A stretch of 64,000 nucleotides of DNA, taken from Lantana camara (taxonomy: Eukaryota > Streptophyta > Magnoliopsida > Lamiales > Verbenaceae). Within the stretch, counting starts at the first letter, position 1; every line of letters starts with the position of its first letter. Of this stretch, positions 19,795 to 61,714 are shown in pieces. Under the pieces are notes generated by a model. That model did no database searches, had not been told where the DNA came from, and saw nothing but the letters and a program-made list of their open reading frames with translations. A program made the translations under genes and the position numbers. The stretch is taken from positions 36,613,001-36,677,000 of the forward strand of contig CM074855.1 in the NCBI GenBank assembly GCA_037501455.1, read 5' to 3'.

Positions 19795-19801
19795 TCTTAG
19801 G

Positions 19802-19813
19802 TGGTATCAGAGC
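19802..19813 (+). other. Primer binding site (tRNA-iMet) of element B
   Basis: TGGTATCAGAGC, seven bases after the LTR end; exact match to the common plant tRNA-iMet primer site. Confidence 0.92.
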
Positions 19814-22550: not shown

Positions 22551-22625
22551 GAGAGACGGGGTTCTCTCATTTCTTGTTGGAGAGACGGGGTGCTCTCATT
22601 TCGTGGTAGGGAGACGGGGCTCTCA
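22551..22625 (+). repeat. Hairpin array of element B (three GAGAGACGGGG units)
   Basis: Three units: GAGAGACGGGGTTCTCTC, GAGAGACGGGGTGCTCTC and GAGACGGGGCTCTC, spaced about 29 bp apart. Each has a short GA-rich arm, a CGGGG-containing loop and a complementary CT-rich arm. Related arrays lie in F and C, always shortly before the polypurine tract. Confidence 0.85.
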
Positions 22626-22663
22626 CATTACTTGTCTTGTGCATCATTTTTAAACTCGACAGT

Positions 22664-22700
22664 GAATCTGGTGACCAGATTCTTCTAAGGAGGGGAGAGT
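22664..22700 (+). promoter_or_regulatory. Pre-PPT hairpin and polypurine tract of element B
   Basis: GAATCTGG-tga-CCAGATTC (22664-22682), a perfect eight-pair stem, then four bases and AAGGAGGGGAGAGT abutting the LTR. The arms differ from those of A at paired positions. Confidence 0.85.
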
Positions 22701-25531
22701 TGTAACGCCCCGGTTTTTCCATTCATGCATTATGTGTTATTGTTATAACTTTCATATCATGATATTCATTTTAATTTCATTTCAATGCATTTCCTATTAT
22801 ATGCATAATTTATACTTTTCATCTTATAACATATTTTCATTTACATGTATATATATGTATATATTTATGTACCTATTTATATATTTAAACTTATTTTATG
22901 AGATTGTTATTTTTTCTAATCTCATTCACTCATGCAATTAATTATCAACATGCATTATATACATATATACATCCATGTATTCATGCTACCCTAATACACT
23001 CACACATTCATTATATATGTATATAATAATAAGAGCACTAAAGATTTATATACATATAATATACATAATATCTCCACTTTATTACTTTATACATATATAC
23101 ATTATATCTATAATTATATTACATATATTACATACATTCATCTCTCCCACATTTCATTCCATCAAAATAACTTCCACACACACACACACACACCAAAAAC
23201 CGATCAAAACACCAAGGAAGGAGGAAGAGGGATTTCATCATTTTCCAAGCTAGAATTCAAGGAAGATAATTGCATAAGTGGAAGCATGAATACATGAATG
23301 TATATATGTATATAATGCATGTTGAACTCATCTCATCCTTTCATCCATTTCTTCTTCCATCTTGAGGTATAGGGAGAATTCGATTGAATCTCTTGATGTG
23401 TGATTGAGTAGGGTTTGGTGATAATGATAAGAATTCCTGGTTATATATGACTAGAAGCATGATCTTGATCATTTAGCTTGCCAACTTGCATGAATTCTTG
23501 AAGAAATGGGAAGTTGATTTCATGAAATACTTTGGGGTTTGGAATGATAATTCTTGATGATTTGATGTATGTTTCCTTGGATTATATGATGTTTAATTGA
23601 TATATATGAGTTATATGCATAATATATGATTATTTGGAGCATTTTGGTTGAGTTTTCTTTGGGTTTTCATCCCTTTTCTTCCTTCCCCGAAGCTTCCCCT
23701 GTTTTGCCCCTTTTTCCACCTCTGGAACAGTACCCGGGCGGGTAGTTTTCCCCCGAAAGCTTCTGAACTGCTTACCCGGTCGGGGAACTTTTCCCTTGAA
23801 TTTTACCCGGCCGGGTACTCCCTCATCCGAACTCCAAATGGCCTGATTTTTGATTCGTTCGAAATATCTTGAAGTCTAGAACAACCTCCAATTGGAATCA
23901 CCTCAATATCTTTTCCCATTTGTGAGATATTATCAATTCTTTTTGGTGTCGCTGCTTTCCCCGACAAACTGCACTCGCCTAACTTCAAGCTAACGCCGTT
24001 TTCTCCTCGCTTTGAACTAGAAAACGAACCATATACCATTTTAAAGGTCTACTTGTCTAGTTTCATTCCCAATAAGAAAAACTTAATTCCAACTTCTATA
24101 TCTCAAGATATTCCAGTTTTCCCTCAGCATGTACATTTCCAAAAATTGTCGGTTTTGGCCAAACTTCACCAAAACCCTTCTTATCGCATTCTTTTCACTT
24201 CCTTGGCTCCACTATGTGACTTATATGATAAATATACTTGATTAATTGATAAGTATGCTCCTAATTGACATTCCTTGATTGTTATTGCATTATATATTGA
24301 TCCATGACTTTGCCGTTCGTCTTAAATGGTTTATACGAGTCGAGTCTTACGTACACGTGTCCTTGTTATACAGATCACATTCCCGGTGAAGAGGAGCACG
24401 CTCCTTAGGGTGTTTCCTTGCTTCTTTTGGTTGGTAAAGTAAAGGTGAGGTTTAATTTCTAGATATGTAGAACCTTTACAACCCTATGTGATCTTTCGGC
24501 CAAAATGTATCTATATATCTATAATTTTCCAAAACCTTATTGATTTTCAAATAATTTACCGAATTGAACTGATTGATTGATTGATTTGACGAGTAAAGCA
24601 TGTTCACGTTGGGCCCCGAGGGTAGTGTATTGAGCTAACCGAGGAAGCAAGGGCTGACGGGTAACTCTTGCACTATCCTGACCAATTTTGGGATCACCTT
24701 TGAATCCACCAGGAGGTTTGGTGGAGGAAGAAATCCCGTACGTGGGAGTCATGTTCCTGACGTACACCATGCATGGATAGTTGGGTCTTGCAAGCCCACC
24801 ATCACCCGGAGGAAGAAGGAGTTCATGAAACTGTTAATTGTGCACTGTAATTACTTGCATGATAACCTAATAAATTGAAACACTCATGATTGTACACTTA
24901 TGGACAAAGGTTGGAGAATTGCCCTCACTCGCTGGGCCACGGATTGAATTGATAATGATTGAATTATTAAATTGATTAGTTGTAATCTCGGGCGAGAATT
25001 ACTTTAATATTTGAACTTATATTGCTTCTTTTATGAAAACTTACCCGAGATTGTAGCTTGCATGGTAATTGCGCTTATATTTATTTAAACCCCTCACTCA
25101 GTCTTTCATAGACTGACATCTCACATTTTCAGTTTTGCAGGTAGAGTGCTAGGCGGGGTCGAGTCAGGTCTTTACCTTTGAGTCTAACATTTCATTTCAT
25201 GTATGGATTTTGGAGTATCATGTTAGTGGTTTTTGGATATTTATACATGTGTGATGTATAGGAGATGATAATGTATTGATAAGTGTTGGTACCTACTACT
25301 ATATATATACTTTTGATGTAAATATGGTACCTATATGTATTGATATAATGCTTCCGTTTTTAATTTATCATGTTTTGGTTTGATTGTGTTGGTGTTAGTC
25401 CCGCCTAGCTAGATTGTTTCTTGCTTTGTCACCCGTTCGCTATAGTCTTGGTTCATGTACGGATTATCCATTTCATATGTGGACTGAGCTATAGTGCGGG
25501 GGTGTGGCATCTCGGCGTTCCGGGTGCTACA
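22701..25531 (+). repeat. 3' LTR of element B (2831 bp)
   Basis: Has the full promoter region (TATA-like 25075-25089, hairpin 25100-25114) and a perfect inverted pair GCTAGGCGGG (25148-25157) / CCCGCCTAGC (25400-25409). The palindrome cluster at 23730-23818 is one unit shorter than in the 5' LTR. Ends TGCTACA next to TATTG. Confidence 0.93.
25075..25114 (+). promoter_or_regulatory. TATA-like box and start-site hairpin (B, 3' LTR)
   Basis: TTATATTTATTTAAA at 25075-25089, then CTCACTC and AGTCT-ttcat-AGACT at 25100-25114, followed by GACATCTC. The 5' LTR keeps the hairpin but has lost the TATA segment. Confidence 0.55.
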
Positions 25532-25823
25532 TATTGACTATTATCAACTTGTACAAAAAAGTTTGCTCCCCTCCTGCTCTACTAATAAGTGGTGTCCTCC
25601 TGCTTGAGACTTTACCTTCATTGTTTTGTGAGTGATGCTCTTCTATTGGATTACACCATTGAGGAAAGCCATGCAAATTGCAACAATAAAATAATCTTCC
25701 CCTGTTACAATTATCTCTATCAACCACCTTGATTGTAGCCCACTCTCCGCATTCCCTGCATTTCTCCTTTCTATATCTAAGAGAATTTTTTCGTGTATAA
25801 GTTGAGCTATTTGAACTTGCCAT
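25532..25823 (-). pseudogene. GRF-type zinc-finger gene split by element B
   Basis: The minus-strand frame starts at ATG 25823 and shows KCRECGEWATIKVVDRDN, then NRGRLFYCCN and GFPQWCNP. This is the C-x2-C, G-R-x-F-x-C and late-Cys pattern of the GRF zinc finger, expected to bind nucleic acid. About 40 residues later the frame runs into the element B LTR and stops. Removing B and one TATTG extends the frame by a hydrophobic tail ending at 16909, giving a protein of roughly 114 residues with an N-terminal finger and a C-terminal membrane segment, an arrangement seen in small plant GRF proteins. It lies between MULE tandem repeats, so it may be MULE cargo or a nearby host gene caught in the nest. 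Confidence 0.8.
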
Positions 25824-26649: not shown

Positions 26650-27090
26650 CAAAATCGAAGGTTAAAATCGAGTGCACAATTCAATAAAAAAATAAACAAT
26701 TCTATTTAGCTGAAGAATCTAGAGCACGATTAATTAAATCGAGTGCGCGATTCAATTAAAAAAATAAATAATTATATTTGGTTGAAGAATCTAGCGCGCG
26801 ATTCATTAAAAAAATAAACAATTATATTTAACTGAAGAATCTTGTGTGCGATTAATTAAATCGAGTGCGCGATTCATTAAAAAAATAAATAAAACGATTA
26901 AGCAGAAGAATTGCGTGAGCGATTCATTAAATCGAGTGCGCGATTCACTAGAAAAATAAACAATTCGATTTAGCTGAAGAATCGAGTGCGCGATTCATTA
27001 AATCAAACACTCGATTTAGTTGGTTTTCTCCCCAAATTCAAGTTCCAATACGTGTGAAGTGGCCAATACCCTTGGGGAACTTGAATCACA
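26650..27090 (+). repeat. Short tandem repeat with GAATCGC-type palindromes
   Basis: Imperfect units of about 60-80 bp with the pattern GAAGAATC...GCGCGATTCATTAAATCGAGTGCGCGATTCA separated by A/T-rich links (AAAAAAATAAATAATTATATTT). The final part (27000-27090) matches the 338-bp monomer, so the short repeat looks like an expansion of one subregion of the larger one. No gene. Confidence 0.8.
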
Positions 27091-43971: not shown

Positions 43972-46165
43972 TGTGATACCCCGTCTTCTCGGTAATCCAG
44001 GTACGACGTCTCGAGAGAGTTTAATTCAGTAATTATATGATTCGCATGCCTTACGTGTCAATTTGAAATTTTATTTAATTATATGCGCAATAGAATTTAA
44101 TTAATTGTACTTGGACTCAACCGTCCAATATTTGCAAATTAGGGACCTAATTCTAATTAGGGTGTTTGAGCCCCGCGGCTACCATGAGCTCGGGAATTCG
44201 AATTCAAATTTCGACTTCACTTTTGGACTCTTTTCGATGATTCGGGTCCATTAGGACTAGCCTTATCTTTTTCTAAAGCCGTTTGACCTCCCTAACGATT
44301 TAATTTCTAATCGTTTGAACCCAACCCATTTTGAACCGAACCGAACCGAACCGATTTTCTTGGCCTTAATAAACCAAACCAACTCTCTTTCTCCCTCATT
44401 TTTGCCTATCTCATTTCTTACAAGAGAAGAAGGAAGAAGAAGGGTTTTCTCTCCCCATACCAAAGAGCTCAAGCCCCGTCTTCAATTCTTGTCTAATCAA
44501 CGATCCGAGGTAAGATTTGAATTTCTCTCTTCGTGAACTTCTTTTCTACCCGAATATATCCCGTCTTTCTTGCTTGTTTCTTTGGACTTGGAGGAGATGA
44601 TGAATAGTGCTATTATATGAAAATTTGCTCCTATATCTTTATCCTTGAATCATATGATCTAAGTTTGAAGTATGTTGTTCAGTTAATCTCCCTCGTTACA
44701 TATTTGTTGGAATTTTAAGTGTTGGTTGCTTATTACTTGAAACTCCATGAATGGAGCTTGAATATGCATTAATGGTGGATTAATTTCTTGTGTATTTTGT
44801 GCCTTAAGATTAGGATATGTGATAGAGCATGTTTACATGAACTTGTGCCTTGATTTTCAATGCATTTGGTTGAGTTTTGAGGTGGTTTCGATCATTTTTT
44901 GTTTCTCCCTCGAGCACCCTTGTTCTGCTATGTTTTTGCTACCCAGAAAGACTCCCCGGGCGGGGAGTTTTTTGTACTAAAACGTACCCGGGTGGGTACT
45001 TTAGTGCAGAAAGGTTTCTGCACTGTTTTCCCCGGCCTGGTAAATTTTGCCTTGTATTTTCCCCGGTCGGGTACCCCTTCATACGATCTCTGATTGACCT
45101 GAATTTTGGACACGACCAACCTTTTTGAGTCTAGAACAATCTCCATTTGGAATCACCCCAAAATTCGTTCTAGATTGTGAGATATAACCATTTTAATTTG
45201 GTGTCGTCACTTTGCCAAAATTCTGCATTCGTTCAACTTTAGACCTCCGCCATTTTCGGATCCCTTTGAACCATGATTCGTGCCATATATCATATAAAAG
45301 ATCTATGTGTCTAGTTTCATTTACAAAAAACAAAGATCAATTCCCATTCCTGAAACTCAAGATATCCCCCTTTTCGTATAGCTTGTGCATTTTGGAAAAC
45401 TGTCAGCTTTGGCCTAATTTCACTCGGAACCCCTTTTTGTGTTTGTATTCCATTTTTCTCGTATCATTCCACCTCCGAACTTGTTCCTAACTTTTTTTTA
45501 TCATGATTATAGGTATGCATTTGTTCTTATATGCCTTTTGTTTACCTTTGGTTGCATTAATTGTGCACATGAACATGCCTTGATGTGTTTTAAGCATATG
45601 TTAAGTTATGAAATGCATTTCTTTGCACAAAATGAGTTTGAATATGAACTTTGCCTAAGTATTTGTATCTCTTACGTGACTAAGCATATATATGCCGTGC
45701 GTCTATATGGTTCATCCTCGAGTCTAAGTCTTGCATTTTGTCTTCAGTTTATCCAGGTGCACCCGGGGTGGTGTTTCGTGATCCGAGTTGATTCCGAGGT
45801 GAATCTTTTATCTCATTCTTGACCACGTCGGTGTAAGGTGAGTTTAGGTTATAGTTAAACCCTATGAAACGTGCCCGTTTTCTATTCATGCGAACTATAA
45901 CCTTAAGTATAAGTAAATATGTGCGAAATATGTATGTTTATGAATTTGTTAAGACTTTGCAATTATAATGAGCTATGTACAAGCCTATGTACGCTTGTTT
46001 CGATTTGTTAATGTACTTGTTCAGTGTTGCAACATTAGACAACGCTTCAAACCGTGTACCTCTTATGAGCCGGAAGATACGCCTAAAGGATTTGACACGG
46101 AGAGGTATGAATAGCGCGGTTGTTGCTAGGTAATGCTTTGTACGTAAGAAATTTGTGAGTTATAG
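43972..46165 (+). repeat. LTR D, 3' truncated
   Basis: Starts TGTGATACCCCG, like LTR A, inside the integrase of I. The stretch GAGCTCGGGAATTCGAATTC near 44185 and the ACACGGAGAGGTA block near 46100 match LTR C, so D and C are related. It contains a palindrome cluster (44951-45076). It stops resembling an LTR near 46150-46165 and passes directly into internal-type sequence, without U5, LTR end or primer site. No coding sequence seen. Confidence 0.75.
44951..45076 (+). repeat. Palindrome cluster in LTR D (CCCGGGCGGG type)
   Basis: ACTCCCCGGGCGGGGAGT (44951-44968), GTACCCGGGTGGGTAC (44984-44999), an AGTGCAGAAA/TTTCTGCACT stem (45003-45024), then CCCCGGCCTGG and CCCCGGTCGGG variants. Outer arms differ between units, yet each pairs with itself. 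Confidence 0.85.
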
Positions 46166-47535
46166 GCTATGGAAATGTTATCAAACCACGGCCAATCGTT
46201 TGACAATTTCGGCCTACTACAAGAATTCCTCTCTAACTTGGGAGGGTAAGAAAGTGTCCCAGAAATTCATACAAGGATTCGAGAGCCATTGTCTTTTCCT
46301 ATCGAGTTAAAATTCAAGCAAGGGGATCCGGAAAGAGGAATCAAGCGTGGAAATCATTTACATAATTCCAGAAGTTGGAAAAAAAAAATTCGAAGAGGCT
46401 TAGGCCGGGGTTCTAGCAATAAGGATGAGGCGATTCTCGAGGAATTAATTATGGAAAAGGTTCGGGAACCATTTAGACAATGATAGTTGGGAAGGAGTTA
46501 GGTTCAAGAAATTTCCAAACCAAGTCATGGAAAGGCCTAATTTGAAGCCGAAGAATCTTGAAGATTTAAGAGACCGTGGGAAAATTTGAGAGTGATCAAC
46601 CGTTCGAACCAAGCTTGCAATTTGTCCAACAAGGAATGGATACCAGATCCAAGCCTAACATTTCTACGGTGATAGGTTCTTCAATGCATTCATAAGCACG
46701 TGCATTATATCTATTGATTAATTGCCTCTCATTTTTATATGTTGCCATATATTGCTATTGAAGATTTCATGCTTGATGTGTTAAATGCGTTATTTAAATT
46801 ATTTAAGTTATTTAAATTTCTTCGTATATACATATATATCCTTAGATTAATATAATTGTCCAACGTATTGCATTTAAAATTATTAGTAAGTGTAATATGT
46901 GCAACAACATTTTAACCGACATGCATTATTTAGTGTTTACTATAATAGGTTCTTTCTCCAATTTTATTTCAACTATCGTCTCAACTAAGATTACATTGAA
47001 TCAAGAGATTGGAAGAAATCTACGTTCGAGTATTATTGAGAAGATTATTGGGATCCGGGAAAAATGTTGATAAGTTCAAGCAGATAAGTGGTCATAGTGT
47101 TGGACTTGCAAATACCAACCCTATGGAAGCAATAGGTGGCAAGTGCAGTGTTGTTGCACTCCTACGGATAGCAGAAATCTACAACCTCCACCTAAGGAAT
47201 TTATGATGGTTGATTATGTCTTTTAGCGGATTTTATTGCTAAAAATTTCAGATATCGGATCAGATTGGTGATATAGTCGGGGAGCTTCAAGTTGAGTATG
47301 TCTTTAGCAGAAAGGACCATAAAAGACCCGGTAATCAAAATCTTGATCAAAATAGCAAGTATGACGCGGAAAAGGTTACGGATGCTGAACAAGCAGAGAA
47401 GCTTGCAAGTGGGGAAGAACAGAACAAGGATAATTAAATATGGGACTTATCTAAAAAGGTGGATTTCAAGAAAAGTGAGTTGGAGAAATTAAGGAGTGGT
47501 AAACAAGCTCAAGGAATTAGAAAATTTCTATTTTC

Positions 47536-47548
47536 TTAAGGGGGAGAG
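47536..47548 (+). other. Internal copy of the polypurine tract in element F
   Basis: TTAAGGGGGAGAG, identical to the terminal tract at 49071-49083 and preceded by a small GAAAAT-ttct-ATTTTC stem. Element C has the same 13-mer internally at 54788-54800. Confidence 0.7.
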
Positions 47549-48761
47549 CCGGTCTGGAAACAAATCAAAAAATGGAGTTAGGTCTCACCAAGGATAGGTG
47601 GAATTTCCAGAAAACTGATTCCTTCTGGAACCCCTTTATCAAAACCATGTGAAAGAAGTCTTCAATAACTTAAACCTTTTCTCCCTCTTACCCAAAGAAA
47701 AGTCCCATCATCGACAGAACCTTTGTTTTTTTTTACCGTCTCAGAATGCGGGTTCTTCTGTTTTATGATCCTTCTGTATTCTCGGGACATCATTTGACTC
47801 AGGGAATAGAGAGGGATTCAATTTGGCTATAAATAAGGCAGCCGTAATGATCTAGAACACTACGCGAACCGTTCCTTCGTGCGTGCTTCCTGCGTCACCT
47901 CCATAAATGTACCAGTTTCCCATGAAATTGATGTTTCTTTCCATGCTAACACATTGGAGAAAATGGAAGCTCTGAGAATTACAGAACGAAGATTGATCCT
48001 CTCCTTCGAGATTTTGCAGAGTTGTTGGATATGTCATTAAATTTCAGGGATCAATGGAAATGTTTCATCGGGACCTGATGCCTTCGGGTTCTATGCGAGT
48101 GTGTTTGTTGAAGTATTACTCTCGAATAGGAGTTCAACCTTTATATTTCAACATAGGGAGTTTCAGATCTTTGTTCCGAGAGAGTGTTTTGCTTTGATTA
48201 AGGAGGTTGATAAGAGGGTAAAATCTATTCTTCCTGTTTGTTGAACAAGAGATTGCTTGGAGCCCCAAAACCAGTTTTCTAAGCTTGGGTACACAATCAT
48301 TCTCTAACAAGAAGTCCAACGGTTACTTCTATTTTTCGGGTCCAGGAGTAAGGGTGTGAATCGAGCTAAGGATGGTTCAACCGGTAAATTAGAAGTTGAA
48401 ATTAGCAGGAGAAGGCAGTGATTAATGATGGTTTACGGATTATGTGAGAAAATAACACTAGGGCTGAGATGGCTATCAAGAATGGAAATATCGGACCGTG
48501 GTAGCATAAAAGAAGCAACCTTGATTAAAGTACCAAGCATACAACCGCACTACTACCATATGAGGAATTTCTATCCACGGTGAATGGTACATTTGAACAT
48601 GCATATCATGTGCATCATTTATATTACTATCGCCGTATATGATTTCTTGTTTATTGTTAAGGGTTCTAGTAAACAATAAATTGTTATTTTCTACCTGCTT
48701 TTTACGTGACAAATGTGTAGATCCTTATCTAAGTGCCTGCTTGAATTTTATTTCGTGTGCG

Positions 48762-48867
48762 TGAGAGAAGGGGATTCTCTCAGGGTAGCCAAGAGACGGG
48801 GTTCTCTTGTTACTTGTTCGAGAGACGGGGTTCTCTCATCGGTTGTTTGGGAGACGGGGCACTCTCG
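48762..48867 (+). repeat. Hairpin array of element F (four GAGAGACGGGG units)
   Basis: Units GAGAGAAGGGGATTCTCTC, AAGAGACGGGGTTCTCTT, GAGAGACGGGGTTCTCTC and GAGACGGGGCACTCTC, spaced about 29 bp. In the second unit both arms changed together (AAGAGA/TCTCTT). Confidence 0.85.
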
Positions 48868-49050
48868 TTATTATCTACTACTTGTTAACTTGTTCAAGTG
48901 GAAGGATAGATTTTCTTTCGAGTGTTTAAGCTCCGGAAAGTTGAGGGTCGTGACTTCACAACGGTGGAGGACTCTTATGGATTGAAGACCTCTTTCGAAC
49001 TAATCCCTGACGGGGAGTGGCTAACCCGCGAGGGATGAATACAGAAGGGT

Positions 49051-49086
49051 TAATCCGAGGACGGATTCTCTTAAGGGGGAGAGAGT
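49051..49086 (+). promoter_or_regulatory. Pre-PPT hairpin and polypurine tract of element F
   Basis: AATCCG-agga-CGGATT (49052-49067), four bases, then AAGGGGGAGAGAGT abutting the LTR. Confidence 0.85.
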
Positions 49087-49259
49087 TGTGACGCCCCAAA
49101 TTCCAGACAGTCAGGTACGCTCGACACGTGTGATTTTCCGAGGGTTAGGACTTATTTAATTCTTTCGTTTATTAAATTTATACCTTTCATGATAATTTTA
49201 GAAATTATATTTCTACATGTTTATTTGAAATACTTGTCAACTTGAGACTTGTTACATGA
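49087..49259 (+). repeat. 3' LTR of element F, first part
   Basis: Starts TGTGACGCCCC directly after the polypurine tract and is cut after CATGA (49255-49259) by element C; continues at 60105. Confidence 0.88.
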
Positions 49260-50957
49260 TGTAACGCCCCCGTTTTTCAGTTTAAATAATGTGATGTAAT
49301 TGTTTATAAATTGCGCAAATTAAGTATTTAATTATATGATTAATTGTTTATAAGTGTTTTTATTTGATTTAAAACCGTAAACTTTTGTTATTTAATTTAA
49401 TTAATATGGAATTTAAGTTTAGTAATTTATTTATAACAATATAAATTCGTTCATGCGCATGAGCGTTCTAATTGTGCTTTGTTCATATATGTATTGATAT
49501 CGAAATGTCGTGAAAATTTAATATGTTGTAAATATGTGTGTTATGAACATGCCTATATGCTCGGTTTATGTTTTCGGATTCATTTAACGTGGTTATGAAT
49601 TTAATTTTGATTGTGGAACCAAATCGGGGGCTAACGAGCAATTAGCGCACCCTTGGTTCCGTGCGTGATATCTTGAGGTCGGGAATTCGGATTCGAATTC
49701 CGTCAACTCCGTTGCCTTCGTATCGACGATTCGGAGACAATGGAACAAGCCTCATACCTTTTTGAGATCATTAAGACCTCCAAAATCCAACCGTAACGGA
49801 CAACTCGTGCAAGAAGAGCCCTTATGTTGACTAGTCTTCATGGTGGGACCCCATAACCCTCCCTAAACTTAACCATACCTTAACCATGCCTTATCCACCT
49901 TGAGTTAACTCCATCCTCTCCCTTTTAGCAGCAAAAACCGAACCATATCTCCCTCATTTCTGCAACTACTGATCGAGAGAGAGAGATAGAGGAGAAGGAA
50001 GGAACCCTTGGTCATCCTTTGTGATTTTGAGCTCAAATCACCATCTTCTTTCACCAAATCTTCAAGGTATGAATATTTATGTCTTCTCTACTCAATTATG
50101 TTTGATTTCATCTATTTAAAACATGATTTGGATCAGATTTGATTAGGGTTTGAATTATGAGTTTAATATGAACTTTTAGGGATTTTTGCTCTAGTGACCT
50201 ATATGTTGGTGTGGCTGAATTTCTTGCTTATATGTGATCATATGAACTTGTTTCTTGGCTTATTTCTTTCCTAACTCATAGTATATGATATTAGGAAGAT
50301 TTCATCTCTTGCTCCTTTTATGAAATTATGAGATATGGAGCTCCAAACTTGATGATCTAATTGATTCCCCTGTTTTTGAACTGCTGTGTGAATTTATGTG
50401 TTGTAGCTTGATCATATGGCCTTCAATTCGTGTGAAAATGCATGGAGTTGATGTACACTTATTGTTATACATGTTAACATTCATGCTTTAAGTATTTGGT
50501 TCCATTTGAAGCCTCAAAACCGAAGTACATGGCCTGTTCTTATGCATGATTGTTGGCAGAATTGTTGCTGTTACATTTTGTAACTTGTTGATCATTCTAA
50601 TGTGCTTTAAATGGTACCATTTTGCATATATATGATGTATATTAGTTGTTTGGTATGTTAGCATGCATTCCCCAAAGTTTCAGATCCAAATTCAAGCCCT
50701 AAGTACTTGATTAAGGCATGATAGAATCATTAGGGCTCATATGTCCGATTGTAGCGACCCAGTTTTGTTTCACGGTTTCGATGATCTTAACGTGTGATTT
50801 AGCTTTTTCACTCTAAATGAAAAATGTTCATAACATGCCAAATATGTTGTATATGAAATTTCAGAGCATTTGGAGTTCATTTGGTATGCCTTTGGATTGA
50901 TTTTGTATGAGTTCTGTTTTGCCGGTAAAAGTGTTCGAGCGGTTTTGGTTCTGTACC

Positions 50958-51083
50958 GTGACACCCCCGTGTCACATTTACTCATAAGAGTGAGACACGG
51001 GCGTGTCACACCCTCTGCTCAGTTCTGTACTGAGCCACGCCCGTGGCTCAGTTGTGCTAGGGTTGGTGACACCCCCGTGTCAC
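50958..51083 (+). repeat. Palindrome cluster in LTR C (GTGACACCCCCGTGTCAC type)
   Basis: GTGACACCCCCGTGTCAC at 50958-50975 and 51066-51083, an inverted-centre copy (GAGACACGGGCGTGTCAC) near 50990, and one unit with changed but complementary arms, TGAGCCACG / CGTGGCTCA (51031-51050). The same cluster is at 57944-58069 in the 3' LTR. Confidence 0.9.
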
Positions 51084-52611
51084 TTCCCATGCGCAGTCTT
51101 CGTTACTTCCTTTTCGGTTTTTGATTTGTTTCCCCTCCTTAATGACCTTATCTCCTTTTGTGTTAAACTATGAACTTGTTTGGCTATATGTTAGGAGTAT
51201 TATGGTGCAATTTCATGATATTTGGATGTGTTTTAGGTATGCTTTTGCTTAATGCCGGTTATGGGTGTTTATGTGTCGTTTATGAATCGCCTCGCTTATT
51301 TTCTATATCTTATCACTTCTTCTTGTTGCCCAACCTTGAATATATGCTATGTTATGTAATATGAAGTATATGGTAACATTATGGGAGAGCTTGAATATGT
51401 TCTATGCTTCTATTTGAGTTCTTGAAATAAATTGATTGGACATATGGATTGAAGAATTTGAGTGATTTATGATCGAACAAGTGAATGAATTGGTTATACG
51501 ATCTTTATGCCTTCATATCATGCTTGAGCATTGCCGTGCGTCATATATGGTTCATTTAGAGTCTTGAGTCTCACGAACACGTCTTGTGGTCTTTTGTTCA
51601 GTTTGTCTCCAGGGTGGAGAGCTGTTGATCGTCAGGCACTTGGTGCTCGATCCTTGTTTCTTCACGGTTAAGGTGAGGGTGTTTTCGTTGTAGCTACGTA
51701 TTAAACCCTACAACCCTTATGTGAAAAGCTTTGGCCAAAACCCTTATGATTATATATATATATGGTTTTCAAATGGAGTTATCGAGTAAATCCTTCTGAA
51801 TTATATGTATGAGCGTACATAAGCTTAAAAATGGTTTTGTAATGAGGCTATGCTCCAAACCGTGTGTCTTCATGCTAGCTATGGATTAGGATGACACGGA
51901 GAGGTACGTATATAGCATATGCCGAATTACCCGGTAAGGTATGATTTCTTATAGTATGTATACTATGTATGTATTGATATGTTTTGGCGAGACACATCTA
52001 TCACTAGTTACAGAACGGGCCCCGGGACTTAGTATATGTGGCTAACCGAGGAAGCAAGGGCTGACGGGGATCCCATATACTAGTCCCACTACTAGACAGC
52101 GGTACTGGACCTCGTCAGGAGATTGGCGGGGAAAGGGAGCTGAGTGCCATCTGGGGAGTCATGTAACCCCTTTTGGTCAAAGACGGAGGTGGTCGGGCCT
52201 TGCAAACCCACCACCAACCCGGAGGAAGAAGGTTGGAATTAATTATAATTGAATGATTGATTGACTGATTGATTACCGATTGATAGGCACTGTGCGGGAA
52301 TGCCGGAAATCGGATTGCCCAAACAAATATATTTAGGATATGACTTGATTTATGGTCTGCCTGTATTATGATATATTGCATGATCACCTAATCAATATAT
52401 TATTGATAATTGTCGTACACGGTCGGAGTTTGGATGGAGGTTGTGCACGCTCACTCGCCGAGCCTTATATTTAAGTATGATTTACGAATGGAATGAATTT
52501 AATATGAATTAGTCATAAAATCCGAGCATTGGTTAATCATTCTCTTGTCCTTTTTGGGAACTAATTGCCAACAAAACCTTGTTCGGAATCTATGACTTGC
52601 ATGTGCATGTT

Positions 52612-52657
52612 TTATATATATATGTATCGCTCCTGCTCACTCAGTCTTCTAGAGACT
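52612..52657 (+). promoter_or_regulatory. TATA run and start-site hairpin (C, 5' LTR)
   Basis: TTATATATATA at 52612-52622, then CTCACTC and AGTCT-tctag-AGACT (52643-52657) and GACCCTC. Repeated at 59598-59643. Confidence 0.6.
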
Positions 52658-53121
52658 GACCCTCTCCCTCCCCCAATCTTTTAGTGCGCAGGTTTGACTC
52701 TGGAGTTTCGGGCTAGGCGGAGACGTTTGGAGTCTGTAAGTTGGTCGAGTTAGGTTAGGAGAGTCTTTGCACTCACTCATGTACTTGATTTATGTTTGAT
52801 TCGATTCTGTAGTTCCGGACTTGAATATTTATGTAACTGTTATTGAATTGACCTTACTGGGCTTTGCTATGTTTTAAAAGAGGCCTGAAGAGCCCGAATT
52901 CCATTTATGGTTTGTATGATCGAACTTTGGTTTGCTATGCATTATATTTTGTTGATTGGTTATCATTGGAGGGTCTAGCTCCGCCTAGCTTAGGAAGGTT
53001 TTTATGTTTGTCTCCCGTTCGCTAGGGTTTGATACGGGTGCGAATTTACTGTTTCGTTACTCGTGTTGAGCCTTAGTGCGGGGGATGTGGCGCCTCACGT
53101 GCGGGGTGCTACATCCTTAAG

Positions 53122-53133
53122 TGGTATCAGAGC
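53122..53133 (+). other. Primer binding site (tRNA-iMet) of element C
   Basis: TGGTATCAGAGC, eight bases after the LTR end; intact. Confidence 0.93.
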
Positions 53134-56024
53134 CCGGTTGCAAAACCGGTGTTCTTGAGTCGTGTCGGAGTCAGTTTAAGTCGAACGGCATAAGGACTAT
53201 GTGATATTGTGTGCATTGCATCGGTCTTGAATATGGAATTTGGCTTCTTTTAAGAATTTTGTTGAATCACTTGTTGCATCTTATACGGATTCTTGTCTTT
53301 CGTATCGAATATGTGTCATGAGCATGCACTAATCGCATGCATCTATTCTTGAAGTAAGCTGTGATTATAGGTTATAAAGATACTATCAAACCCTGGTCAA
53401 GTTCTACGACAAAGAAGATCGATTGCAAACCTTTCTGAGACATGGAGGATGGGCAGGATACTCCGGGGAGGAATGTGGAGAATGTTTGATGCGCGGCTTC
53501 TTAGACTGAGTTGCAATTAACGGTTGGGATTCAGAATGGGAGGTTCGACCTTGGCGAAGCGATAGTAGAGGAACATTTGGGGGAAATGAAATAGGAGTTA
53601 ATCGTGGGGTTATTGAGATTCAAAAGACTAACTTATGAGAATCGGCTACTTGGCGTGCATTAATTGGATCCAACAGGATCTTTCAACCTCAGGAATGAAT
53701 TACACAAAGTCTTGAAGACATTTTGGTCTCGGATTTGGATCAGGGAAGAGGTACTAGTCATTAAGAGGAGTAGAGACAATAGGGGTCCGGCAAAGGTTAT
53801 ACATCAAGGGTCTACAAAGAAGGACTTCGAACTAAGTCTAGTGATTAGAAGTCGGGGTCTAGAAGGCAAGCATTTGGGGAAACACGAATAGAGGGAAGGT
53901 GGCGATATGGGGAACAGGATTTGAGTTCGTTTTCCAAAACCAAGCTGAATTGCCATGTTGTGAAGTAAAATGGAGGATATGAAGCAACAAATGGAAATGG
54001 TAAAGAAAGGAGATCATGCGCTCAAATGTAAGCAGTTGGAGGTGAAATGAACTCACAAAGGATAGGTACGGGATTCTTGATCAAGGTGACAATTAGAAGT
54101 AAAGGTCGAATTGCGAGGAGAAGTGTAGATGCTAACTCAGTGGACGTGGAAGAAGTAAGGATCAAGAAATTGCAATCTCGGGCAGTGGATGATACAAGTC
54201 GATTTACAAAGATGCATGGAAGTCTCGAAGACCGTGGGAAAGGCCAGGAATAATTACCAGGTCAGGTGACGTTGGGATCAGAAGAACGAGGAAAGCTACC
54301 GAGCTAATAACTTCCCACATCGGTGACAGGTTCCAAAACATTCATAGCACGTGCATCATATTTTACATTAGTTATTTATTCTCTTGACTTTATGTTTGAC
54401 CGTACCTTTCTAATTGGTTTCGTTGCGCTAATGCGTTGTATAATTGCTTGATGTAAACGTGACCCATGCATTGTCATTTTAACCCAACATGCATTTCAGT
54501 GTTTACTTGATAGGAAGTCTTTTCTCCTTAACTATCAAGTATCAGTTCAACCGAGCCGCATTTGAGTTATGAGGAAGAGAAATAATAGGATGATATCAGA
54601 AGGAGAAATGAGACTAGAGTTCCGGACAAGATTAAGAAAGGAGTTTCGGATATCAAGAGAACTAGGGAAGGAGTGAAAGGCCAATCCTTGATTTCTATAT
54701 CAGTTAAACTTCACCTAATGGGAATTACTCATCAAGACTTGCGGCAAAAGAAGAATCAATAGAGTTCAATACGGGACAACAGAAAATTTAAGGGGGAGAG
54801 CACGACCGAGGAACAAATTGGACGATTAAAAGGGTGTTCGAAGAAATATTTCAGTAAGAATAACGAAATTGCAAATTAAGGAAGACCTGGGAGTCTTATT
54901 AGTGATGATCAGAATTAAACAAGACGACTTGAATGGTTAAGTTGTTAAAAGGAGAGTTAAGTTACTCAATTCGGGTTGGAGTCCCTCACTAGGGATAACG
55001 GAAATGGCTTGGAGAATGTTCTTATGTATAGAACATGGGTCCGGGAATAACAGACTTATAAGGGGAGCTTCTGGAAACTCCTAAATCAGAATTGACAAAA
55101 GGGAGAGTGTCGAATCAAGCTAGCATAGAATGGAAGGAGGGCAATCAAGAGTAAATCAATAGAGTAAAAAGAAGGTGCAATAATGGCAATATTATCAAGT
55201 CTTCGGTTAGTCCCACGATAATTCGGAAGGAAAATTAAGAAGGAACCAAACCAGAAAAGATGATCATTGGAGGATTTACATCAAAGTAAAACGCATCAAG
55301 AACATTTCATCTTTGATTCAAGAAATGTAGGGTCAGATACGGAATATAACCTTAAAGGGGTTAAAGAGAATGAATGGATAAAATGAACGGAAGCTAGAAA
55401 AGGATTCGTGTTACGGTAGATCCTAATGACGAATACCTCAAGGTAGGGATGGAATCGTCAAGGTTGTCCGGATTAGTTATCCTTGAAGGTATTTTAAACT
55501 CTGATACGGGTAATATAGTAGCTAGGGACATAACTTTGAGACGAATGATCTAAGGGTATTCGGGAGGTCAAACTTGGTTAACTACAAAGAGTTGGTTGAA
55601 TGAAGATTAAGGGAAATGGTGGAGACTGGGAGCAGTACCAGGCAGAATGGATCCAAGAATATGATCCTTAAAGGATTTATCAATAGCTTTACCGAGGAAC
55701 CTTGAAGAGGTTCAAGACAAACTGAGCACTGAATCTATCTTCAGGACAGATGATGCACTGAACAACGACAACTCGCGATGTTAAAACTTCGTGACTACGG
55801 TGAACGGTATTTATAACATTCATGAAGCATACATTCATGCAAATCCAATTTAATAATTTCTTTGTCATATGCTTTGTTTTCGTGTCAAGTTAAATTACAT
55901 GAAGTAATTGATGATTAACGTGGATGATATCTGATATTTACCTTGAGTTGGCTTAAGTGATTTTAAATTTGGTGTTGCGTGAGTTGCTTGGGAGTATTGG
56001 AGACTTCCTTGCTTTATTTTCGGT
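53134..56024 (+). other. Non-coding interior of element C
   Basis: No credible gene. It keeps landmarks shared with B and F: GAGCATGCACTAATCGCATGC near 53312, TTATAGGTTATAAAG near 53368, CTCGAAGACCGTGGG near 54223, TAGCACGTGCATCAT near 54345, a second block ending GATAGG near 54510, and GGTGAACGGTA near 55799. An internal polypurine tract is at 54788-54800. The rest is purine-rich and full of stops in all frames. Confidence 0.75.
54788..54800 (+). other. Internal (central) copy of the polypurine tract in element C
   Basis: TTAAGGGGGAGAG, identical to 56231-56243 at the 3' end. It lies about 53% of the way through the interior. No LTR-like sequence follows it. Confidence 0.75.
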
Positions 56025-56187
56025 TAAGAGACGGGGATTCTCTTATTTTTGTTTGAGAGACGGGGTACTCTCTTTGCTTGCGAGAGACGGGGTTCTCTCA
56101 TTGTTATTGGAGAGACGGGGTTCTCTCATTGCTGCTTGAGAGACGGGGCTCTCTCCTTGTTGTTTGTGAGAGACGGGGAATCTCTCA
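56025..56187 (+). repeat. Hairpin array of element C (six GAGAGACGGGG units)
   Basis: Six units spaced about 29-32 bp. The first has arms TAAGAGA/TCTCTTA and the others GAGAGA/TCTCTC-like arms, with loops CGGGGAT, CGGGGTA, CGGGGT, CGGGGT, CGGGGC and CGGGGAA. The array ends about 25 bp before the pre-PPT hairpin. Confidence 0.9.
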
Positions 56188-56210
56188 TTATTTGATTTCA
56201 AGCGTGTTTT

Positions 56211-56245
56211 GAATCCGAGGACGGATTCTTTTAAGGGGGAGAGAT
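56211..56245 (+). promoter_or_regulatory. Pre-PPT hairpin and polypurine tract of element C
   Basis: GAATCCG-agga-CGGATTC (56211-56228), four bases, then AAGGGGGAGAGAT abutting the LTR. Confidence 0.9.
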
Positions 56246-59200
56246 TGTAACGCCCCCGTTTTTCAGTTTAAATAATGTGATGTAATTGTTTATAAATTGC
56301 GCAAATTAAGTATTTAATTATATGATTAATTGTTTATAAGTGTTTTTATTTGATTTAAAACCGTAAACTTTTGTTATTTAATTTAATTAATATGGAATTT
56401 AAGTTTAGTAATTTATTTATAACAATATAAATTCGTTCATGCGCATGAGCGTTCTAATTGTGCTTTGTTCATATATGTATTGATATCTAAATGTCGTGAA
56501 AATTTAATATGTTGTAAATATGTGTGTTATGAACATGCCTATATGCTCGGTTTATGTTTTCGGATTCATTTAACGTGGTTATGAATTTAATTTTGATTGT
56601 GGAACCAAATCGGGGGCTAACGAGCAATTAGCGCACCCTTGGTTCCGTGCGTGATATCTTGAGCTCGGGAATTCGGATTCGAATTCCGTCAACTCCGTTG
56701 CCTTCGTATCGACGATTCGGAGACAATGGAACAAGCCTCATACCTTTTTGAGATCATTAAGACCTCCAAAATCCAACCGTAACGGACAACTCGTGCAAGA
56801 AGAGCCCTTATGTTGACTAGTCTTCATGGTGGGACCCCATAACCCTCCCTAAACTTAACCATACCTTAACCATGCCTTATCCACCTTGAGTTAACTCCAT
56901 CCTCTCCCTTTTAGCAGCAAAAACCGAACCATATCTCCCTCATTTCTGCAACTACTGATCGAGAGAGAGAGATAGAGGAGAAGGAAGGAACCCTTGGTCA
57001 TCCTTTGTGATTTTGAGCTCAAATCACCATCTTCTTTCACCAAATCTTCAAGGTATGAATATTTATGTCTTCTCTACTCAATTATGTTTGATTTCATCTA
57101 TTTAAAACATGATTTGGATCAGATTTGATTAGGGTTTGAATTATGAGTTTAATATGAACTTTTAGGGATTTTTGCTCTAGTGACCTATATGTTGGTGTGG
57201 CTGAATTTCTTGCTTATATGTGATCATATGAACTTGTTTCTTGGCTTATTTCTTTCCTAACTCATAGTATATGATATTAGGAAGATTTCATCTCTTGCTC
57301 CTTTTATGAAATTATGAGATATGGAGCTCCAAACTTGATGATCTAATTGATTCCCCTGTTTTTGAACTGCTGTGTGAATTTATGTGTTGTAGCTTGATCA
57401 TATGGCCTTCAATTCGTGTGAAAATGCATGGAGTTGATGTACACTTATTGTTCTACTTGTTAACATTCATGCTTTAAGTATTTGGTTCCATTTGAAGCCT
57501 CAAAACCGAAGTACATGGCCTGTTCTTATGCATGATTGTTGGCAGAATTGTTGCTGTTACATTTTGTAACTTGTTGATCATTCTAATGTGCTTTAAATGG
57601 TACCATTTTGCATATATATGATGTATATTAGTTGTTTGGTATGTTAGCATGCATTCCCCAAAGTTTCAGATCCAAATTCAAGCCCTAAGTACTTGATTAA
57701 GGCATGATAGAATCATTAGGGCTCATATGTCCGATTGTAGCGACCCAGTTTTGTTTCACGGTTTCGATGATCTTAACGTGTGATTTAGCTTTTTCACTCT
57801 AAATGAAAAATGTTCATAACATGCCAAATATGTTGTATATGAAATTTCAGAGCATTTGGAGTTCATTTGGTATGCCTTTGGATTGATTTTGTATGAGTTC
57901 TGTTTTGCCGGTAAAAGTGTTCGAGCGGTTTTGGTTCTGTACCGTGACACCCCCGTGTCACATTTACTCATAAGAGTGAGACACGGGCGTGTCACACCCT
58001 CTGCTCAGTTCTGTACTGAGCCACGCCCGTGGCTCAGTTGTGCTAGGGTTGGTGACACCCCCGTGTCACTTCCCATGCGCAGTCTTCGTTACTTCCTTTT
58101 CGGTTTTTGATTTGTTTCCCCTCCTTAATGACCTTATCTCCTTTTGTGTTAAACTATGAACTTGTTTGGCTATATGTTAGGAGTATTATGGTGCAATTTC
58201 ATGATATTTGGATGTGTTTTAGGTATGCTTTTGCTTAATGCCGGTTATGGGTGTTTATGTGTCGTTTATGAATCGCCTCGCTTATTTTCTATATCTTATC
58301 ACTTCTTCTTGTTGCCCAACCTTGAATATATGCTATGTTATGTAATATGAAGTATATGGTAACATTATGGGAGAGCTTGAATATGTTCTATGCTTCTATT
58401 TGAGTTCTTGAAATAAATTGATTGGACATATGGATTGAAGAATTTGAGTGATTTATGATCGAACAAGTGAATGAATTGGTTATACGATCTTTATGCCTTC
58501 ATATCATGCTTGAGCATTGTCGTGCGTCATATATGGTTCATTTAGAGTCTTGAGTCTCACGAACACGTCTTGTGGTCTTTTGTTCAGTTTGTCTCCAGGG
58601 TGGAGAGCTGTTGATCGTCAGGCACTTGGTGCTCGATCCTTGTTTCTTCACGGTTAAGGTGAGGGTGTTTTCGTTGTAGCTACGTATTAAACCCTACAAC
58701 CCTTATGTGAAAAGCTTTGGCCAAAACCCTTATGATTATATATATATATGGTTTTCAAATGGAGTTATCGAGTAAATCCTTCTGAATTATATGTATGAGC
58801 GTACATAAGCTTAAAAATGGTTTTGTAATGAGGCTATGCTCCAAACCGTGTGTCTTCATGCTAGCTATGGATTAGGATGACACGGAGAGGTACGTATATA
58901 GCATATGCCGAATTACCCGGTAAGGTATGATTTCTTATAGTATGTATACTATGTATGTATTGATATGTTTTGGCGAGACACATCTATCACTAGTTACAGA
59001 ACGGGCCCCGGGACTTAGTATATGTGGCTAACCGAGGAAGCAAGGGCTGACGGGGATCCCATATACTAGTCCCACTACTAGACAGCGGTACTGGACCTCG
59101 TCAGGAGATTGGCGGGGAAAGGGAGCTGAGTGCCATCTGGGGAGTCATGTAACCCCTTTTGGTCAAAGACGGAGGTGGTCGGGCCTTGCAAACCCACCAC

Positions 59201-60099
59201 CAACCCGGAGGAAGAAGGTTGGAATTAATTATAATTGAATGATTGATTGACTGATTGATTACCGATTGATAGGCACTGTGCGGGAATGCCGGAAATCGGA
59301 TTGCCCAAACAAATATATTTAGGATATGACTTGATTTATGGTCTGCCTGTATTATGATATATTGCATGATCACCTAATCAATATATTATTGATAATTGTC
59401 GTACACGGTCGGAGTTTGGATGGAGGTTGTGCACGCTCACTCGCCGAGCCTTATATTTAAGTATGATTTACGAATGGAATGAATTTAATATGAATTAGTC
59501 ATAAAATCCGAGCATTGGTTAATCATTCTCTTGCCCTTTTTGGGAACTAATTGCCAACAAAACCTTGTTCGGAATCTATGACTTGCATGTGCATGTTTTA
59601 TATATATATGTATCGCTCCTGCTCACTCAGTCTTCTAGAGACTGACCCTCTCCCTCCCCCAATCTTTTAGTGCGTAGGTTTGACTCTGGAGTTTCGGGCT
59701 AGGCGGAGACGTTTGGAGTCTGTAAGTTGGTCGAGTTAGGTTAGGAGAGTCTTTGCACTCACTCATGTACTTGATTTATGTTTGATTCGATTCTGTAGTT
59801 CCGAACTTGAATATTTATGTAACTGTTATTGAATTGACCTTACTGGGCTTTGCTATGTTTTAAAAGAGGCCTGAAGAGCCCGAATTCCATTTATGGTTTG
59901 TATGATCGAACTTTGGTTTGCTATGCATTATATTTTGTTGATTGGTTATCATTGGAGGGTCTAGCTCCGCCTAGCTTAGGAAGGTTTTTATGTTTGTCTC
60001 CCGTTCGCTAGGGTTTGATACGGGTGCGAATTTACTGTTTCGTTACTCGTGTTGAGCCTTAGTGCGGGGGATGTGGCGCCTCACGTGCGGGGTGCTACA
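56246..60099 (+). repeat. 3' LTR of element C (3854 bp)
   Basis: Same length as the 5' LTR at a constant offset of 6986 bp. Differences seen include changes at about 49507/56493, 49677/56663, 50475/57461, 51537/58523, 52549/59535 and 52688/59674. Confidence 0.96.
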
Positions 60100-60104
60100 C
60101 ATGA

Positions 60105-61714
60105 ACTGAATAAGCTTGTTACGTGAATTAATTGCCGAACTTGTTTTATTGCTTAAGTGTCCTTAATTATCATTTATTTAAAATTAGAGGACCAAATCGC
60201 ATGATTATTTTCTTGGACCTAATTGATCATTTTCCAAACCTTTTATACTTAATTGCATGAACTTATATCTTTGAGGGATTTAATTGCAAATAACACATTT
60301 CATCAATTTCAAGGCAATGAATCACGTTATATTCCTTCTTCATTCTTCCATGATCATTTCATTTCATACAAACATACATATTTGCTCCCTTGTTCTACCG
60401 ATCCAAAACTTCAACCAAAAGAAGAAGGGATTTCATCATTTCTAGCCAAAATCTTTGAGGAGTTGAGAGTCTTGGAGCATCATCTTCATCATATTTTCAT
60501 CTTTTCTTCTCCTTCTTTCATTCAAGGTAGAGTTGGATATATATTTGATTTCTTGAGAATTTTATGTAAAGCTAGGGTTAGTATGTAAGCTTGTCAACTT
60601 GGTTATTTGATGTTGGAAGTATGATTCTATGCTTTTAGCTTGAATTTATACATGAATTCTTGAAGAAATTGGAGTTATAGGATAAGTTGATATGTGAGCT
60701 TGAAGTGATGATTTTGGGAATCAAAGCATGAAACAAGTGTTTATATTGGGTTCTATTGCACCTTGAGCATGTATACATGTTACCTTTCATGAATTACAAT
60801 CTTTGGAATTGAATTATGATGGTTTTGGTGAGATTTGGTAAATGTTCAAGCATCCTTGTTTCATGCTCTGTTTCTGTACTATCTGCGTAACGGGAACGGC
60901 CCTTCCCGTTCCCAGTTGTTTTGGGGAACGGCCGTTCCCATGTTTAAATTATATGCATGGCGGCGAGGATGGGAATGACCCTTCCCTTTTTGGCTCACAA
61001 GCCTGAACGGCCGTTCCCATCTTCGGGGAGCTGGGAACGACTCTTCCATTTTGAACTAAGGGCCGGAACGGCCGTTCCCAGACCTCTGGAGAGGCAGTGA
61101 AGTTTCTGCATAAAATGTGAAATTCCAAATCCTTTACTTTACCTTTAATTGATCCCAATTTATGATTATATGTTCAATTACATGTTATAACATGATAATT
61201 ATATGCTACATTGTTCATTGCACGATATCTCGTTATGTGGTTATGCCGTGCGTCATAATTAGTACCATTATCGAGTCATGTCTCACGAGTGCACAAATGT
61301 TTCCGTTTTTTATCCAGTCTTCTCCAAGGTGGAGATTGTTGATCACTGAGCACGTTCACGCATCCATGAGTCTTCGTGTCGCCTGTCAAGTGAGGTTTAA
61401 TTCTAGTTATATAGAACCTATACAACCCTTACGTGAGCTTTCGGCCAAAAGGTTTTTATATCTATAATTTCCCATGAAAATAATCATGACTACAAGCAAG
61501 TCATTTTAACGCAAGCAAGTCATGTTCATGAAAAGCAAGCAAGCCATGTATCGTGGATGTTTTAGGGGAGTAAGCATGATTGTTCACTTTGGGCCCGAGG
61601 GTAGTAGCTTGAGCCAACCGGGAAAGCATGGGCTGACGGGTAACTCTAACGTTATCCTCACCACATTGGGATGACCCCTGAATCCGCTAGGAGATTAGTG
61701 GAGGAAGGAGTTCC
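60105..61714 (+). repeat. 3' LTR of element F, second part
   Basis: Continues the LTR begun at 49087 after element C and the CATGA repeat. It matches the minus-strand fragment 8806-11273 in order. It holds a palindrome cluster (60892-61080), a conserved CAAGTGAGGTTTAATTC block near 61388 and the GGGCCCGAGGGTAGT core near 61590. It is cut at 61714 by element G; the promoter and U5 parts would follow beyond. Confidence 0.88.
60892..61080 (+). repeat. Palindrome cluster in LTR F (GGGAACGGCCGTTCCC type)
   Basis: Several units, the cleanest at 60924-60939. The arms are the same type as in LTR A, although F and A differ at the LTR start. Confidence 0.85.

Follow-up and report, generated by a model that had tools for sequence, protein, structure and literature searches.

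A covarying hairpin array with a G-rich loop accompanies gag-only LTR retrotransposons and their gag-less relatives in the Lantana camara genome

A stretch of 64,000 nucleotides of the Lantana camara genome (G000:C1:36613001-36677000, hereafter the window; the whole genome comprises 1.27 Gb in 378 contigs) was found to contain arrays of short units, each a predicted hairpin with a CGGGG loop, placed close to the 3' end of long terminal repeat (LTR) retrotransposons. Carriers of the array were sampled across the genome and, in these samples, the array goes with a lineage of elements that encode Gag and no Pol (gag-only elements) and with relatives of this lineage, not with pol. The two arms of the units change in pairs, and it is this covariation, and not folding energy, that constitutes the argument for structure.

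Four LTR elements of the window are relevant here, named A, B, C and F, and the LTRs of all four begin with TGTRACRCCCC. Element C carries six units at positions 56025-56187, F four units at 48762-48867 and B three units at 22551-22625, all on the plus strand and spaced 27-30 nucleotides (nt) apart. From the end of the array to the polypurine tract (PPT) there are 45 bp in C, 61 bp in B and 205 bp in F. Position, unit counts and placement before the PPT agree with a first-pass annotation made from the letters of the window, as does its remark that copy number differs between families, which ranges from three to six in the window elements. The constant CGGGG loop that it had described held in part: all 13 window units have GGGG and 12 have CGGGG, the first unit of F (F1) showing AGGGG instead, and the loop consists of CGGGG plus 0-3 nt, so that an exact CGGGG loop is not universal. 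The paired arm changes that it had named are real, as exemplified by TAAGAGA/TCTCTTA in the first unit of C and CAAGAGA/TCTCTTG in the second unit of F, and the pattern was found to hold genome-wide.

The exact 18-mer unit GAGAGACGGGGTTCTCTC is present in 20,669 genome copies, against 0 for the reversed control, and GAGACGGGGTCTC, a zero-spacer variant that is a minority among units, in 257 against 7; on these controls a chance GA/TC-rich palindrome was rejected. At stem pair 4, genome-wide counts were 20,669 for G-C, 1,307 for A-U, 286 for G.U and 137 for A.C. By our own arithmetic, about 1.9 A-U cases would be expected if the two sides varied independently, against the 1,307 observed; the arms do not drift apart across the genome but keep their pairing. 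When the three outer pairs were left free, a pattern that fixes only the three inner ones, 28,971 places were found, against 93 in the control. The first 100 of them comprised 83 Watson-Crick units, 13 with wobble and 4 broken, and the 42 among these that depart from GAG/CTC were Watson-Crick in 25 cases, wobble-containing in 13 and broken in 4. Two candidate identities were also discarded: an Rfam family, for which a scan of window positions 44000-60200 gave 0 matches (E up to 0.5), and a viral relative, with 0 occurrences of the exact 18-mer in IMG/VR.

Pairing within individual units was assessed on 42 arrays (39 from GAGACGGGGTCTC places plus the three of the window), which yielded 178 units anchored on ACGGGG, 92 of them distinct, after isolated units, with no other within 100 nt, had been dropped; as GAGACGGGGTCTC is itself paired over four bases, the 39 arrays found through it include one biased unit each. 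The arms of the 92 distinct units paired with each other over 5.63 of 6 positions on average, compared with 5.20 (maximum 5.34 in 2000 shuffles) when the 3' sides were shuffled. A second set, taken from copies selected by their Gag protein (see below) and so free of motif-selection bias, gave 5.57 for 29 distinct units against 4.99 after shuffling (highest of 2000, 5.28). In both tests the loop register was picked by best pairing, a freedom that the shuffled controls had equally. Among 43 distinct units with a 5' arm other than GAGAGA, 29 reached a threshold of 5.5 with their own 3' side, as opposed to 17% when such arms were matched with the 3' sides of consensus units. In 116 comparisons between neighbouring units with different 5' arms, a unit's own arm paired better than the neighbour's in 85 cases, worse in 17 and equally in 14, and pairing with the neighbouring unit was rejected on the 102 untied comparisons. 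In an ungapped column alignment (A2) of the 57 of the 92 distinct units that paired best with a 6-nt loop, cut to 20 nt, 27 cells were changed on both sides, compared with 10.3 in shuffles, none of 500 of which reached 27; its score of 0.281 exceeded that of every slid version (highest 0.205). Here and in the count of non-Watson-Crick cells that follows, the loop register was again the best-pairing one. Since copies are related, these cells and counts are not independent events. Non-Watson-Crick cells were G.U in 20 cases, A.C in 7 and others in 18 (20 versus 7, binomial p 0.019). This excess of G.U over A.C, seen likewise at stem pair 4 (286 versus 137), is as expected if the sense RNA folds, and a structure confined to DNA or to the antisense strand was rejected on the same grounds. 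Neighbouring units were 27-31 nt apart in 118 of 136 cases and 55-57 nt apart in the other 18.

Of the window elements, A is an autonomous-type Ty3/gypsy element whose reading frames are broken by stops. Its internal region (1412-6117, plus strand) encodes gag, matching Retrotrans_gag, as well as protease, reverse transcriptase (RT), RNase H and integrase, and contains no array. The left LTR of A extends beyond the window, and the 3' LTR (6118-8810) begins immediately after the coding sequence and PPT, which bears out the earlier statement that A lacks the array. The 66-amino-acid (aa) end of its coding sequence reads by eye as a chromodomain end; a Pfam scan of this end found no chromodomain. 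Element B is complete (16967-25535, plus strand), with LTRs at 16967-19798 and 22701-25535 that are 95.5% identical and an internal region at 19799-22700. It has a Gag reading frame of 266 aa (21573-22373, plus strand) made of the N-terminal part and a degenerate zinc-knuckle part of the gag-only Gag; the capsid part is absent from this frame, which gave no Pfam match and which terminates in NGERYT, abutting the 3' segment. Element C, also complete (49260-60099, plus strand), is nested in the 3' LTR of F and flanked by the 5-bp target duplication CATGA. Its LTRs (49260-53113 and 56246-60099) are 99.8% identical over 3854 bp, and its 3.1-kb internal domain (53114-56245) retains a primer-binding site (PBS), TGGTATCAGAGC, and the PPT, with no open reading frame (ORF) of 150 aa or more. 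Element F is visible in part only: its 3' segment (48579-49086, plus strand) comprises the gag-end motif described below, the array and the PPT, and its 3' LTR, beginning at 49087, is interrupted by C. Neither a Gag match nor an ORF of 150 aa was found in C or F.

Carriers elsewhere were first sampled through the motif, taking 10 kb around the first 20 GAGACGGGGTCTC places of contig C1, on which the window lies, and 700 bp around 19 places of contig C2. All 39 places sit in arrays of at least two units. In 17 of the 20 contig C1 loci, a fixed pattern recognized a PPT followed by an LTR start; L013, L020 and L027 have, by eye, a PPT with an altered LTR start. Upstream of the array and on the same strand, a Gag match was found in 17 loci (L009-L014, L016-L019, L021-L026 and L028), the Gag of L009 lacking its middle part and that of L019 being distant, and none was found in L015, L020 and L027. 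Between gag and array, no match to the RT of A was present in any of the 20. The order in L019 is gag, array, a remnant of the integrase C-terminus and PPT, suggesting that the array occupies the former site of pol. Copies differ in their number of units, and L009 and L024 have two or three arrays within one 10-kb stretch, representing neighbouring or tandem copies that share sequence.

A further sample was based on the commonest unit, GAGAGACGGGGTTCTCTC, with 850 bp fetched around each of 20 places chosen as the first distinct arrays in the list of occurrences. Every one of these arrays has three or more units, and the gag-end motif is kept in all except L094 and L099. Gag sequence precedes this motif in five of them, resembling the gag-only Gags in L089 and L092 and element B in L083, L088 and L091. 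The other 15, closest to C, L015, L027, F and others, had no Gag match in the 850 bp, in keeping with the earlier claim that elements without coding capacity carry the array; in L081 and L096 the fetched stretch starts at the gag-end motif, so that gag would fall outside view. In this sample, gag-less elements outnumber gag carriers.

Carriers were also chosen by protein instead of motif. When the genome was searched with the gag-only Gag, 32,082 first-look candidates yielded 116 scored matches, each in an open frame of 339-396 aa, 61 of them without a stop by hand count. In the 450 bp downstream of 20 of these matches (copies 83-100% identical to one query), three to six units stand behind gag in 18 copies. 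The failing ones are L050, with one unit followed by other sequence, and L064, with none; L063 has three units, as the fourth match counted there is the PPT. For the integrase of A, the corresponding search returned 105 scored matches, and open frames of 1542 aa were frequent among them. The 3' ends of 12 of these, all of one family, run to the PPT without an array, and neither two further autonomous-type 3' ends, on the minus strand of L021 and L028, nor an integrase end of another kind on the plus strand of L027 has one. Confinement to non-autonomous LTR elements, as first suggested, is compatible with this absence from sampled autonomous copies (0/12 and 0/2), but the suggestion had missed the gag-only class with its intact gag.

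The distribution of the array was related to the descent of its carriers. Several internal blocks, among them the array-bearing 3' segment, are common to B, C and F at about 61-82% identity; A has the PBS region in common with B and C, and a gag piece as well as the PPT-side end in common with B. The shared 3' segment opens with GGTGAAYGGTA in B, in C (at 55799) and in F (at 48579), the gag-end motif and segment start of B (22356-22391, plus strand) reading GGTGAACGGTA...CATGCATATCACGTGC. The gag ORF of gag-only loci ends at this motif, GGTGAAYGGTA, which translates as NGERYT-stop in L010, L012 and L022 and as HGERYH-stop in L024; in L013, L016, L021 and L028, the stop codon is the TGA within the motif. 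The shared segment and the gag-end motif indicate that the array was inherited behind gag rather than adopted three times, and the view of the three window families as separate adopters has to be given up. In carriers of the commonest unit, too, the motif suggests an ancestor that had gag. Gag frames or pieces of the B type were seen at window 21573-22373 and in L009, L083, L088 and L091; in B and L009 they consist of the N-terminal part and the knuckle region, with the capsid part missing, and Gag of this type is a possible step between gag-only and gag-less elements.

The Gag proteins of gag-only elements were analyzed. Full stop-to-stop gag frames of 354-376 aa are present in seven of the 20 contig C1 loci (L010, L012, L013, L016, L021, L024 and L028), with two complete CCHC knuckles in six and one cysteine fewer in L021, and with no match to the RT of A between gag and 3' LTR in any of the seven. 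L016, L010 and L019 match Retrotrans_gag and Ty3_capsid, and a weak alignment to retroviral nucleocapsid chains (best E 0.007) was obtained with the knuckle region of L016. The LTR pairs of L010, L012, L022 and L028 are 98.6-99.9% identical and are flanked by the 5-bp target duplications GTAAA, ATATA, CAATT and CTCTC, respectively, which indicates recent movement of gag-only copies. For nine gag-only Gags, the ratio of nonsynonymous to synonymous distances (dN/dS) was 0.06-0.24 in 34 of 36 pairs, as calculated with our own Nei-Gojobori script, many dS values exceeding 1 and the N-terminal frame of L022 being different. The two exceptions, L010-L022 (0.67) and L011-L022 (0.38), are young pairs with dS of about 0.04-0.05; L019 and A were too distant for dS. 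Intact gag-only Gags are under purifying selection. The Gag of A is about 43% identical to the gag-only Gag over 277 residues, and a comparison of the latter with 5.8 billion proteins returned one nameless relative of 233 aa at 56% identity.

Some other structures of these elements and of the window are recorded here. A hairpin of 6-8 bp, with arms that change in pairs, lies directly before the PPT in autonomous and non-autonomous elements alike. In the window it occupies 6081-6099 in A, 22664-22682 in B, 49052-49067 in F and 56211-56228 in C. Hairpin and PPT together span 6081-6117 in A, where the hairpin overlaps the apparent end of the coding sequence, 22664-22699 in B (GAATCTGG TGA CCAGATTC) and 56211-56244 in C (GAATCCG AGGA CGGATTC), all on the plus strand. 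Similar hairpins were seen in L009, L010, L015, L019, L020, L046, L069-L080 and, on the minus strand, L021 and L028. Their arm pairs include GGACCTGG/CCAGGTCC, GAATCTGG/CCAGATTC, AAATCTGG/CCAGATTT, AATCCG/CGGATT and GGAATCTG/CAGATTCC, and the hairpin is possibly a general structure of this lineage. Ahead of its CGGGG array, at 5800-5960, locus L015 has a further row of hairpins, with a TGYNGGAT or TGCTGGA loop and paired arms (GAGAGA/TCTCTC, AGAAAGA/TCTTTCT and CAAGAGA/TCTCTTG). The minus strand of the window at 11412-12720 contains two reading frames of 227 and 165 aa beside an LTR-like start at 11273, with no array, and 15678-16872 consists of a tandem repeat of about 339-bp period, to which sequences are related at 13518-13779 and 26949-27088.

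The G-rich loop, the paired arms, the regular spacing, the place behind the sole gene and the retention in gag-less derivatives point to recognition by a protein from the gag-only elements. We tentatively propose, as the best of the readings weighed here though at slightly less than even odds, that the array is a multivalent docking site by which the gag-only Gag selects these RNAs for packaging. In the element RNA, units of about 28 nt would fold into hairpins that present the CGGGG loop, the zinc knuckles of Gag would read the exposed loop guanosines, and this recognition would decide packaging. C and F, which have no gag, and B, with a Gag that lacks the capsid part, may use the gag-only Gag in trans, and pol would be supplied by an autonomous partner. 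The shared RNA-binding protein that the first-pass annotation had proposed is consistent with the compensatory arms, the constant G-rich loop and the non-autonomous carriers; as to the partner, sequence relationships make the Gag of gag-only elements the natural candidate, and not that of autonomous A, whose identity to the gag-only Gag is about 43% and whose RNA has no array. Nucleocapsid knuckles of human immunodeficiency virus type 1 (HIV-1) and Moloney murine leukaemia virus (MoMuLV) are described as binding exposed guanosines of hairpin loops (PMC7599994), and the HIV-1 leader as binding more than two dozen copies of nucleocapsid (PMC7395439). As to origin, it is conceivable, though somewhat more speculative, that the gag-only lineage, a long-lived one, turned the site of its lost pol into a phased 3' packaging platform, which would unite the maker of the capsid and the tag of its cargo within a single short element, and that gag-less relatives kept the tag, stole the capsid and multiplied.

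Several observations weigh against a packaging role. The minimum free energy of the three whole window arrays is not better than that of dinucleotide shuffles (z -0.83, -0.41 and 0.01), since the arms of one unit can pair with those of another, and in a partition-function check of six arrays the named hairpin was improbable for many units, where the arms of neighbours compete. Units B2, B3, C2 and F4 pair by eye over 4-5 bp only, and in alignment A2 the count of further pair types was not above shuffles (155/500). The array is absent from all 12 sampled copies of the A family. In the 15 commonest-unit loci without Gag in the 850 bp fetched, the link to Gag rests on descent and trans action. 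The best match of Gag among solved structures is Arc (E 0.0005), over residues 264-314, before the knuckles. In the viral systems, isolated packaging hairpins were bound poorly by MoMuLV nucleocapsid (PMC7599994), and the HIV-1 packaging signal is located in the 5' leader, with the tightest nucleocapsid sites near junctions and not in plain loops (PMC7395439). Finally, conserved structures of a 3' untranslated region (UTR) can equally serve stability, export or translation.

This last point underlies the main rival explanation, which we consider rather unlikely: a host RNA-binding protein would read the array as a 3' UTR element for protection, export or translation of the gag mRNA and of the relatives' RNAs, and Gag would take no part in its recognition. 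The position behind the gag stop fits such a role, a G loop with paired arms suits any RNA-binding protein, and relatives without gag in reach, which would need only survival and export of their RNA, have kept the array. However, the A family, whose RNA must likewise be exported and translated in this plant, has no array in 12 copies, and the array tracks one element lineage and not LTR retrotransposons generally. Less likely still is a functionless expansion of tandem repeats, with pairing produced by quasi-palindrome correction or by template switching during reverse transcription. Plant LTR elements often carry tandem arrays between coding region and 3' LTR (about half in Retand; PMC11963269), unit number varies between copies here, and the folding energy is unexceptional. 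By contrast, gag lineages separated by synonymous distances of about 1 or more still have the loop and the paired arms in common, while Retand repeats are described as family-specific (PMC11963269). Palindrome correction predicts neither the G.U excess nor the constant loop, unless mutation is lopsided, and the narrow range of spacing (27-31 nt in 118 of 136 neighbours) also speaks against mere expansion. It is very improbable that the hairpins aid reverse transcription or integration by shaping plus-strand priming, strand transfer or recombination between elements: the array does lie 45-205 bp from the PPT in window elements, and a hairpin with paired arms also stands right at the PPT in these families, but the latter, which autonomous elements also have, would be enough by itself, the distance from last unit to PPT reaches about 335 bp in L015 and about 575 bp in L019, and the wobble excess points to RNA, not DNA. 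The idea that the GGGG tracts form a joint G-quadruplex, or pair with CCCC at the start of the 3' LTR, is the least probable of all: despite GGGG in 13 of 13 window units and the TGTRACRCCCC start of the LTRs of A, B, C and F, the tracts are 28 nt apart, paired arms would be needless, the LTR of F matches the loop over four bases only, and A has CCCCG and no array.

The carriers resemble several described classes of elements. Large retrotransposon derivatives (LARDs) have long LTRs and a long non-coding internal domain and keep PBS and PPT. C fits this description, with LTRs of 3854 bp and a 3.1-kb internal region without a 150-aa ORF, and F can be compared as far as it is visible. The gag-only loci, with a single Gag ORF and no pol, two LTRs, recent copies and target duplications, are like the TR-GAG elements of plants (terminal repeats with a GAG domain), of which AT5TE33540 transposes in Arabidopsis ddm1 (PMC8704663) and further examples are reported from sunflower (PMC9784723). 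B, C and F fall outside this class, as C and F have no Gag and B a capsid-less one. A hairpin array or other 3' RNA structure is not mentioned for TR-GAG elements in the portions of these sources at hand, and here it is common to gag-only and gag-less copies. In wheat, the non-autonomous RLG_Quinta has lost RT and integrase and keeps Gag, with the autonomous RLG_Cereba as the source of enzymes (PMC11302176). This is a comparable arrangement of a Gag-keeping element and an autonomous partner, although the pol donor in our case is a conjecture; that pair targets centromeres and shares the PPT and other features, and the available part of the account mentions no hairpin array. BARE2 cannot make Gag and is nevertheless packaged, with conserved packaging and dimerization signals; it is a Copia element, and its signals are not described as a hairpin array in the accessible part of the text (PMC3735527).

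As regards the array itself, Retand and Ogre elements have short tandem units of variable copy number in the same element region (PMC11963269, PMC7004042). Tandem units between coding sequence and 3' LTR are thus a trait shared with such hypervariable 3' UTR repeats, but the repeats of Retand are family-specific (PMC11963269), and instead of a family-specific, drifting sequence, loop, spacing and pairing are kept here across families. Short hairpins whose exposed guanosines are read by CCHC knuckles are known from SL2 and SL3 of HIV-1 and from the psi signal of Rous sarcoma virus (PMC7599994). The array has in common with psi a conserved RNA structure, compensatory changes and guanosines that are predicted to be exposed, and reading by knuckles would be a further likeness. 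It differs from HIV-1 psi, which lies in the 5' leader (PMC7395439), in comprising three to six or more near-identical units in the 3' UTR, between the gag stop and the PPT. Among the titles and opening lines of abstracts listed in searches of open-access papers, none names a hairpin array in gag-only or other non-autonomous plant LTR elements.

The motif bears on how non-autonomous plant LTR elements are packaged and mobilized; how specific the proteins of an element are for copies of that element was called poorly understood in a 2021 study of ddm1 (PMC8704663). A compact covarying motif now links gag-only elements with gag-less relatives and offers a short, synthetic and testable RNA for assays of Gag binding and packaging. 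The motif could also mark these elements for annotation, and it could be asked whether repeat number sets copy number. If the packaging role is true, the arrays would represent a modular packaging code in plants, tunable by repeat copy number.
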